Positions 2,479 to 5,091 of a DNA stretch of 5,091 nucleotides are shown in pieces. Source of the stretch: Bacteroidota bacterium (lineage in GTDB: Bacteria; Bacteroidota; UBA10030; UBA6906); contig JAERML010000265.1 in the NCBI GenBank assembly GCA_016844425.1, positions 1 to 5,091 on the forward strand, read 5' to 3'. The translations under genes and the position numbers were made by a program. Positions within the stretch are counted from its first letter, which is position 1; each line of letters opens with the position of its first letter. The notes beneath the pieces were generated by a model, which saw only the letters and a program-made list of their open reading frames with translations, was not told the DNA's origin and did no database searches.

Positions 2479-2820
2479 ATGAAAACCATTGTTATGATTG
2501 TACTTACACTCGTCCTGTTTGCATGCGGTCCGGATAGGGTACTGCTGATGGAGACAAAATTCGATGCGCCATTGAGGCAAAAGATGACGGCCCTTGCTGA
2601 CAGGGAGGATCCTGAGAATCTTCTCGTCCTCGGGAAGTGTGCCGGAAAGATCGATGGAGTGATGAGGCAGGCGCTTGTGGATGCAGGAGCTGATGTACGG
2701 ACGATGCAGGGGGAGATTTTTACGGCGAGTGTCTCATCCGGGGATATTTACAGCGTGGCAGCTCTTGAGTTCGTGAGCCAATTGCAGTTGTCGCAAACAT
2801 CAAAACCGGTTACCAAATAG
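2479..2820 (+). CDS. Small lipoprotein with subtilase-propeptide-like domain
   Basis: The product has 113 residues. ATG 2479 is chosen because AAGGAGGG (2463-2470) lies just upstream and it opens a lipoprotein signal: MK, a hydrophobic stretch, then LFAC with the lipidated Cys at residue 16. An upstream TTG start (2392) would bury this signal. Residues 45-110 resemble the propeptide of the protease encoded next: residues 69-111 align without gaps to the protease segment following its residue 62 with about 16 of 43 identities, including shared RT, IF, YSVA and V...S...P positions. Propeptides of S8 proteases (I9-like fold) assist folding and inhibit the active site, and stand-alone relatives such as yeast Pbi2 and POIA1 act as inhibitors. 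I infer a membrane-anchored inhibitor or folding helper; a periplasmic or outer-membrane site is likely. It ends 28 bases before the protease start, implying one operon. Confidence 0.85.
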   Translation: MKTIVMIVLTLVLFACGPDRVLLMETKFDAPLRQKMTALADREDPENLLVLGKCAGKIDGVMRQALVDAGADVRTMQGEIFTASVSSGDIYSVAALEFVSQLQLSQTSKPVTK

Positions 2821-2848: not shown

Positions 2849-2983
2849 ATGTACACGCTCTTCAGAAGCACACGTTTCCTGGTTCTTTCGGTGGCGGCTA
2901 TCCTGTTTTCAGTTGTTCTTGGAACAGGGGCCGAAACCGGCAACACAGGCAGGGTTCGATTTCTTGGGACCTCCGGTTCATGA
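2849..2983 (+). other. Signal-peptide segment of the protease, in a separate frame
   Basis: This 44-codon frame begins with MYTLFRSTRF, followed by a hydrophobic core to about residue 25 and a likely signal peptidase I site near GTGA. It ends at TGA 2981-2983, overlapping the ATG at 2980. The central protease frame has no signal of its own, so this segment is its detached N terminus. The central frame continues upstream as ISWDLRF before MMSRYE. Restoring one T in the GTTCG stretch (2954-2958) would give a continuous reading. Confidence 0.75.
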
Positions 2984-4482
2984 TGAGCCGCTATGAGGCA
3001 GTCATGAACGATGCGGGGAACTCCGCCATCAACCGGGCGGCATATAACGCCCTCTTCGACGGGAGCCTCCATTTCAAGCTTCAGGAGAACGAGGCACTCG
3101 GTCAACCGACGGCTCCGGTGTTTCTGAAGCTTCAGGACCCTTCCGCGACAATCGAATTGGAGCGGCTCGGCGTACGGATTCGCACTCGGGTGGAGGATAT
3201 CTTCGTTGCGGACGTTCCAATTATTTCCGTTTACTCCGTTGCCTCTCTTCCTTATGTCCACAGTATAACCATCTCTGGCCAATCAGCTCCCTTGCTGAAT
3301 CTGAGCAGGACGGAGGCAAGAGTGGATCAGGTGCATGCCGGGGGAGGCGGTTTGGACCGCGTCTACCGTGGATCGGGGGTAGTAGTTGGGGTTGTTGACA
3401 GCGGTATTGATTGGGCGCATCCTGATTTTTCAACGGCCACCAACAACACCCGAATTCAGTGGATCCTTGACTACGGAAATGCCGGTCAAAGCGGACAGCC
3501 AACGGAATGGACGAAAGCGCAGATCGATGCCGGTCAATGTACCGAGCTTGATGGCGAAGGGAGTGGCGGTCATGGCACCCATGTGACAGGTATTTCGGCT
3601 GGAGGAGGGAGGAGAAACACTGCATATGTTGGAATGGCGCCCGGATCCGATATCGTGTTTGTGAAGGGGATTCGTGACCCGAACAGCAACGGGGGATTCC
3701 AGGATGCCGATGTGATTGCGGGGGTCCAGTTCATATTCAACAAAGCGGCGGCACTCGGCAAACCAGCGGTCGCCAATCTCAGCCTGGGAGGGCAGTTCGG
3801 CCCCCACGATGGGACCAGCCTGTACGAGCAGGCGTTGAGCAAGATGGTGAAACCAGGAAATATCATTGTGGCGGCCGCGGGGAATGAGGGGGCGAGCCAG
3901 ATCCACAGCGGCTACACAGTGACTGGCACATCGATAACCAACGCGGACCAGACTTTCTGGTTTGCCACGAGTCCATCGCTATCAGCGGTGGACATGTGGT
4001 ATCCGGCTGCAGGAAATGCGTCTGTTGGCCTGATGGTGTATGATCCAGCGAATCCAAATCAGAGCTTGGCCGCGACAAACCCTGTCCCACTCGGCCAAAA
4101 GATCGAGAACCTTGTGCTCACGAACGGAACGACCAGCTACGGGCAGGTGACCGTGGACGCGACAACGCAGACTGACCCAAACAACGGAGCCCGCCGGGTC
4201 GTGTTCATAGTCAGCAGTGACAACGGAACCTATCCGATTGACAATTATCTCTGGTCAGTCTATACGATCGGGAATGGGACAGTCGATATGTGGGTGGTGA
4301 CAGGTGGGTTCTTCCCGACATTATCGGGCTTTCCTCCCAATTACCGGAGTGGCAACAACGACAAGTCCGTCGGCACACCCGGCACATCGAAGAAAGTGGT
4401 CTGTGTCGGGGCCTACGTCAGCAAGAACGCCTGGGTAGACGTCAACAACGTGCCGCAGGTTCAACCAGGTGCGCCGGTGATT

Positions 4483-4546
4483 GGCAACCTGTCATCCTTC
4501 AGTAGTCACGGCCCGGCAACCTGTCATCCTTCAGTAGTCACGGCCC
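4483..4546 (+). repeat. Exact 32-bp tandem duplication inside the protease gene
   Basis: Copy one (4483-4514) and copy two (4515-4546) are identical, beginning GGCAACCTGTCATCC and ending CACGGCCC; flanking bases do not extend the match. The unit encodes GNLSSFSSHGP, a conserved stretch before the catalytic Ser. Since 32 is not a multiple of three, it shifts the frame. One copy alone gives SSHGPSRDGRTKPDFVAPGE, an excellent subtilase sequence, so the duplication is clearly the derived state. Confidence 0.97.
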
Positions 4547-4940
4547 CTCACGCGACGGAAGAACCAAACCCGATTTCGTTGCGCCAGGTGAGGCAATCAT
4601 CTCGGCCCTCTCCTCGGGATACACGGCACCTCCGGAGGTTGTCCTTCAAGGAGGCGGTCTGCAGAAGCAGCAGGGGACAAGCCAGGCATCGCCCCACGTC
4701 GCGGGGATTGTCGCCCTGCTGCTTGAGAAGAACAAGTATCTGACGTATGAGAATGTCGTGAGTCTGCTCGGGACTACAGCAACCCCTGCAGGAACGCCCA
4801 ACACACATGGTGCGGGGAAGGTGAATGCGTTGAACGCACTCCTCGCGACGCCACCCGCCGTGGATTGCGTCACGCTTGCCAAGATGACGGGCTTCGACTG
4901 TGACGGGAACCGGGTACTTGCCTATGAGCTGCTGGAAGCC

Positions 4941-5091
4941 TACCCGAATCCGTTTAATCCAGCAACCACCATCGGCTTCCGTCTTGCGAATCCTGAACAG
5001 GTGACTCTCGCGGTCTACGACGTGCTCGGAAGACAAGTGCGGGTCCTGTCGAGTGATCTGCTTGGTGAAGGTTTGCACAATGTTGTGTGGG
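4941..5091 (+). other. C-terminal sorting tail (type IX-like) of the protease, partial
   Basis: In the frame set by the second repeat copy, the protein ends with YPNPFNPATTIGF (4941-4979), then VTLAVYDVLGRQV and more beta strands up to the window edge. This matches the PNPFNP-type C-terminal domain found on secreted proteins in FCB bacteria, where it directs export and surface attachment. It is preceded by two Cys residues (VDCVTLAK and FDCDGN). The end of the domain is outside the window. Confidence 0.85.

Follow-up and report, generated by a model that had tools for sequence, protein, structure and literature searches.

Why would a small, probably lipid-anchored protein resemble the propeptide of the very protease that is encoded beside it, when that protease has a propeptide of its own? 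This question is raised by contig JAERML010000265.1 of a Bacteroidota bacterium (assembly GCA_016844425.1), of which the whole stretch of 5,091 nucleotides, hereafter the window, carries a gene for a lipoprotein of 113 residues directly followed by the gene of an S8 protease (subtilase). An earlier interpretation, made without database searches (the sequence-only reading), had proposed that a propeptide-like domain is carried here on a membrane anchor beside its own protease, and this idea is supported by the predicted fold and by the conserved pairing described below, the function remaining a proposal. We consider it probable that the lipoprotein is a lipid-anchored paralogue of the protease propeptide and acts in trans as an inhibitor (perhaps also as a foldase) of the neighbouring enzyme, which would remain inactive in the envelope until its export.

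Homology of the lipoprotein to the S8 pro-region

The lipoprotein is encoded by its own open reading frame (ORF), which ends ahead of the start of the protease gene, and is thus the product of a separate gene and not a part of the precursor. The S8 gene runs from its ATG at 2849 past the end of the window, which gives the 28 bases between the two genes that had been claimed. Comparison of both products by BLASTP returned one significant ungapped match with 16 identities in 42 columns (E 9e-7), in agreement with the alignment without gaps over about 43 residues, with about 16 identities, of the sequence-only reading. The lipoprotein/propeptide pair of the window reached a z of 9.9, with 0 of 500 shuffles scoring as high, and the propeptide of P0055, an intact close relative of the window protease (source name Bacteroidota bacterium), matched the lipoprotein at 2686-2859 (tblastn, E 1.1e-4). 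Profile-profile alignment with hhalign gave a probability of 97.2 (E 4.6e-11) for 28 lipoproteins against 12 paired-protease propeptides (11 from relatives plus that of the window), and of 98.3 (E 2.3e-14, 86 columns) for 52 lipoproteins against 80 propeptide regions, the highest probability among 30 column-shuffled controls being 1.8. Note that the 80 regions were drawn from 119 proteins, the others lacking a start or a recognised cut point, or being of unsuitable length. Since the 86-column alignment spans the K-x-D-x-x-L-R segment through the tail, the lipoprotein matches the pro-region over almost its entire length; this shared N-terminal segment was absent from the sequence-only reading. 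In addition, the lipoprotein profile also detected the adjoining protease's own propeptide in two genomes (G006 and G200). Judged by sequence, the lipoprotein is homologous to the S8 pro-region, of which it would be a stand-alone copy, and a chance resemblance is ruled out by the BLASTP match, the shuffles, the tblastn match and both hhalign results.

The lipoprotein belongs to a family that, by the profile searches made, is unnamed, since the window protein has no Pfam or NCBIfam match at E 1e-3. Indeed, no Pfam match was obtained for it even at E 10, no I9 match was found among 28 members at E 1, and one of these 28 matched the CspB_prodomain family (PF18425) at a chance-level E of 0.14; nothing credible was found in NCBIfam (best E 0.094) or by sequence search of the PDB (best E 1.3), and phage sequences contained no match. 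A search with one sequence retrieved 25 proteins and a search with a profile 52 at E 1e-5; both sets include the protein of the window. The few members with a useful name belong to Bacteroidota, Bacteroidetes, Melioribacteraceae, Ignavibacteriales, Salinibacter and Calditrichaeota. We aligned 83 rows, made up of the 51 other proteins of the profile search, 31 lipoproteins from the gene pairs described below and the window (some proteins being present twice); Cys occupies the Cys16 column in 78 of these rows, Lys27 is kept in 82 and Gly70 in 80. The lipoprotein of the window is probably lipid-anchored, and a Cys behind a hydrophobic stretch was found by a simple composition rule in 31 of the 32 pair lipoproteins, the window included, with the rule taking an earlier Cys in L022, L024 and L070. 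Two loci beside an S8 gene (L059:4590-5264 and L060:5157-5786) encode lipoproteins with two tandem propeptide-like domains. At a further locus (L126:2433-4643), an S8 protein has its own lipoprotein-like signal (LASC) ahead of the propeptide, and could possibly be a fused version of the same arrangement.

Pairing with S8 genes and joint evolution

Profiles built from lipoproteins only were run on 395 genomes of one phylum (that of G001), of which 10 gave matches at E 1e-3, and on 245 genomes of one class (that of G125), of which 34 did so at E 1e-4; the two samples overlap. The scans yielded 31 small ORFs, the remaining matches being propeptides of S8 proteins, and 30 of the 31 directly adjoin an S8 gene on the same strand, in either order, which bears out the expectation of a conserved pairing. 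A 32nd small gene (in G518), noticed only through its S8 neighbour, was counted as the 31st pair. The lipoprotein comes first in 26 of the 31 pairs and the S8 gene in 5 (L015, L017, L019, L022 and L056), after the ORF starts of L018, L059 and L068 had been corrected by eye. Intergenic gaps are mostly of 5-64 bases, with a maximum of 242 and a few overlapping ORF starts. As S8 matches number only 3-15 per genome (26 of the 30 pair genomes searched), the two genes would seldom adjoin by chance. From longest contigs of equal size (6250, 16166, 90677, 12371, 3564 and 5022 bases), six additional pairs were deduced. P0005 and P0054 form an intact pair deduced from contig size in this way, and the lipoprotein of the L024 pair, likewise intact, is P0048 of Salinibacter altiplanensis. 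When the genome contigs were searched with the lipoprotein, a single locus was obtained, and in the order of G536, the genome that holds the lipoprotein nearest to that of the window within our samples, 1 of 98 genomes had a match at E 1e-8, namely G536 itself.

The neighbours are CspB-like subtilases, in which a jellyroll domain is inserted in the S8 domain. The claim that the subtilase bears a sorting tail was confirmed in P0055, where the type A tail (TIGR04183) reached 36.3 bits for a cut-off of 23, and the PF18962 sorting tail was matched in all 10 S8 proteins tested, 6 above the cut-off and 4 below it with E <1e-3. By this sorting domain, the paired protease would be a cargo of the type IX secretion system (T9SS). 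An assignment to the germination proteins CspBA or CspC was rejected, P0055 scoring 105.6 bits against the NCBIfam cut-off of 1250 for CspBA and 83.5 against 675 for CspC. CspB-like S8 genes were found at 69 places in 44 of the 245 genomes. We examined 36 of these places outside the set of pairs, leaving out five others (fragments or weaker matches); one of the 36 (L140) proved to continue the L001 pair through overlapping sequence, leaving 35 other loci, among which the profile detected a partner in 3 (L120, L133 and L134). At L123, L135 and L137, small lipoproteins without a profile match, similar by eye, lie 17-32 bases before the S8 gene and seem to be remoter members of the family. Not every CspB-like protease gene has such a partner.

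The two genes of a pair have diverged in parallel. Own pairs scored 58.1 against 41.3 (standard deviation 2.5) for permuted pairings, none of 10000 permutations being as high, and a z of at least 3 was obtained in 19 of the 32 pairs. Patristic distances of lipoproteins and propeptides were also correlated (rho 0.66, 0/2000 permutations as high), including within a group of 23 pairs (rho 0.34, 0/2000) and a group of 9 pairs (rho 0.49, 40/2000). Purifying selection on the lipoprotein was shown in one clade by the ratio of non-synonymous to synonymous substitution rates (dN/dS), which was 0.15-0.24 in 3 of 3 comparisons; in a second group, dS was saturated in 6 of 6 comparisons, hence no ratio was obtained. 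Given the conservation, the parallel divergence and these ratios, a decaying duplicate is unlikely.

The tree places 22 of the 32 lipoproteins on a single unstarred branch (93/91). Nine others group with the nine propeptides of the proteases with which they are paired (99/96, starred), and that of L068, on a long branch, falls among the propeptides. The starred branches force at least two changes, and a single origin of all lipoproteins was not rejected by the AU test (p 0.139, on 105 columns only). The idea that each lipoprotein was newly copied from the propeptide of its own protease is unsupported, both by the tree and by the ranks of the own propeptides given below.

Fold, C-terminal tail and proposed mechanism

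The AF2 model of the lipoprotein has the propeptide fold that an I9-like domain was expected to show (VIA-align, 2 matches), and its best Foldseek match is the CspB prodomain (E 0.011, probability 1.00). POIA1 and Pbi2 were not among the best 50 matches listed in the structural search, which excludes nothing. The structural alignment ends at residue 112 of the lipoprotein and at residue 77 of the BPN' prosegment, which we take to be the last residue of the latter. At least 6 residues follow the position of Ser105 in 76 of the 83 aligned lipoproteins, and the last 6 residues of the window model have a pLDDT below 50. On the subtilisin pattern, in which about six residues follow Asp71, most of the tails (76/83) would be long enough for the active site. 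For CspB itself, the prodomain supplied in trans both rescued folding and closed off the active site, which was opened by removal of the last 3-4 prodomain residues, according to the sections of the article drawn on here (PMC3567191). We prefer a product-like inhibitor because of this CspB precedent, the ends of the structural range and the tail lengths.

We propose that the lipoprotein would be exported by Sec, lipidated at Cys16 and retained in the cell envelope. There, the propeptide fold would dock on the cognate CspB-like protease at its catalytic domain, and the C-terminal tail of the lipoprotein would occupy the active site as an uncleaved product. An enzyme matured too early would be inhibited in this way, and some help in folding is possible. 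With a lipid anchor on one partner and a sorting tail on the other, enzyme and inhibitor may therefore separate at export, as the protease with its type IX sorting tail would depart and the anchored inhibitor would stay, so that export would free the enzyme. A broader proposal, to which we give somewhat less than even credence, is that of a widespread envelope checkpoint for secreted subtilases, in which a propeptide, duplicated at least once and perhaps twice, and lipid-anchored as a dedicated foldase-inhibitor in trans, would let type IX export switch the protease on by location.

The anchored propeptide might instead be an in-trans chaperone in the periplasm, with inhibition being unnecessary. 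Subtilase propeptides fold their enzymes, the folding restored by the CspB prodomain (PMC3567191, in the same sections) is a direct example, and some tails seem too short for blocking an active site (2 residues after Ser105 in P0016, 4 in L074 and P0004). However, the paired S8 proteins have propeptides of their own and the great majority of the tails are of sufficient length, and we regard a foldase role without inhibition as unlikely. It is very improbable, in our opinion, that the lipoprotein is a tether placed outside the outer membrane to hold the secreted protease through the propeptide interface: a predicted lipid anchor joined to a binding fold would suit this role, but a domain directed at the active site makes an odd tether. 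Bacteroidota do send many lipoproteins to the surface, which counts for such a tether, but the T9SS has its own means of surface attachment, which counts against it.

Another use of the fold is suggested by a second conserved cysteine, Cys54 (window 2638-2640, in a GKC motif), which is Cys in 52 of the 83 aligned lipoproteins and has no Cys at the corresponding place in any of the 12 aligned propeptides (by eye). This cysteine, together with the two-domain lipoproteins of L059 and L060, would fit a duplicated fold that has taken on an unrelated task, for instance the binding of a ligand or of a different protease; the near-constant adjacency to S8 genes and the parallel divergence speak against such a reuse, to which we attach very little probability.

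Several observations weigh against the anchored inhibitor that we favour. The propeptides retained by the paired proteases mean that a second copy is not obviously needed for folding, and the tail has fewer than 6 residues after Ser105 in 7 of the 83 lipoproteins. The partner at L018 (8126-8464) is without a visible signal peptide or Cys, yet adjoins an S8 gene, and the small gene of G536 has no S8 gene in the 1338 bases upstream or in the 304 downstream before the contig end. No such partner was seen at 29 of the 35 other CspB-like S8 loci. Regarding the comparisons of own pairs, z was below 3 in 13 of the 32, and the own propeptide was the best match in 5 of 32 only. Finally, the correlation of distances shows co-inheritance and not contact, because linked genes that descend together would show it in any case.

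Layout of the window and relation to known systems

The features of the window are collected in Table 1.

Table 1. Features of the 5,091-nucleotide window
Feature	Position	Strand	Evidence
Class II (adenosylcobalamin-dependent) ribonucleotide reductase gene	2-1798	minus	TIGR02504, 543 bits vs cut-off 400
Propeptide-like lipoprotein, 113 aa	2479-2820	plus	ORF
Signal peptide ending in lipobox-like LFAC, with Cys16 predicted to be lipidated	2479-2526	plus	Sequence; Cys in 78/83 aligned rows
Segment METKFDAPLRQKMTAL, counterpart of NKIDPGLR in the S8 pro-region	2548-2595	plus	Profile-profile alignment; helix 30-39 in the predicted model
Lipoprotein C-terminal tail from Ser105, placed at the point where, in subtilisin, the end of the propeptide enters the active site	2791-2817	plus	Structural alignment
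S8 gene start: signal peptide and first pro-region residues, in a frame different from the rest	2849-2971	plus	tblastn with P0055 residues 1-41
Rest of the protease's own pro-region; lipoprotein-aligned part 3169-3294	2980-3330	plus	BLASTP
S8 catalytic domain part 1, with Asp and His motifs	3370-4527	plus	PF00082, E 6.3e-28; best PDB relative CspB 4i0w, E 1.8e-25
S8 catalytic domain part 2, with Ser motif, then sorting tail (about 4941-5042)	4533-5091	plus	PF00082, E 3.9e-16; PF18962, E 3.3e-4, below cut-off here

Relative to P0055, the S8 gene of the window is broken at two places, and its pieces were searched separately. Near 2971 (stretch 2849-2980), about 14 codons (residues 42-55 of P0055) are absent and the reading frame changes; a second frameshift comes from a tandem duplication of 32 bases at 4483-4546. 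These breaks may reflect decay or faulty assembly. At about 3900-4400, the S8 sequence is by eye nearer to P0054 than to P0055, with flanks nearer to P0055, so that a mosaic gene is possible. An Rfam scan of 1700-2900 gave no family at threshold, the single match (24.3 bits vs 55) being taken as chance.

Stand-alone propeptide folds are known from other systems. SUB1-ProM, a propeptide-like inhibitor of SUB1, is encoded beside the subtilisin genes at a syntenic locus in Plasmodium, and TgMIC5 of Toxoplasma has the same kind of fold; both are eukaryotic, the portion of the article used here mentions no lipid anchor for them (PMC6993865), and the present lipoproteins differ in matching the S8 propeptides of their neighbourhood by sequence. 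Similarly, Pbi2/IB2 of yeast, POIA1 of Pleurotus and SPI-1 of Arabidopsis (MEROPS I9) are small stand-alone propeptide mimics that inhibit subtilases, for which the same portion mentions neither a lipid anchor nor an adjoining protease (PMC6993865); unlike them, the present family has no Pfam I9 match. Among bacteria, Spi of Streptococcus pyogenes is a propeptide analogue encoded beside speB, but its partner SpeB is a C10 cysteine protease and Spi is thought to act in the cytoplasm, as given in the extracts of the two articles concerned (PMC2873492, PMC3462683). According to these extracts, C10 proteases of Bacteroides are accompanied within a few dozen bases by the small inhibitors Bfi/Bti, several of which are predicted lipoproteins, but these are staphostatin-like and of another fold, and no significant identity of Bfi to protease propeptides is reported there (PMC3462683, PMC2873492). 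Membership of this staphostatin-like class was rejected, as it requires a C10 or C47 cysteine protease partner and the partner here is an S8 protease.

The prodomain of CspB (Clostridium), the closest solved protease, resembles the proposed inhibitor in that it stays bound and blocks the site, as far as the sections mentioned above describe it, but it is part of the protease precursor. Bergeyella is reported to have two S8 peptidases, putatively exported by the T9SS, that are inhibited by their own propeptide (PMC11982257). In the open-licence literature, narrow searches found no lipid-anchored paralogue of an S8 propeptide among the matches listed; the claim that no lipoprotein version had been described thus held within this literature, but the principle is older, with the Bfi/Bti lipoproteins and SUB1-ProM as precedents. 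The CspB prodomain serves in spore germination and has no lipid anchor. In Bacillus, the inhibitor IPI is reportedly directed at Isp1.

In our judgement, how proteases secreted by the type IX route are kept harmless during periplasmic folding is a practical open question for Gram-negative bacteria, and this lipoprotein family points to a simple answer, in which the inhibitor is fixed in place and the enzyme moves on. If this is true, the propeptide-like inhibitors of eukaryotes would have a membrane-bound equivalent in bacteria, and a prodomain would here have turned into a separate regulatory gene that follows its protease through deep divergence.
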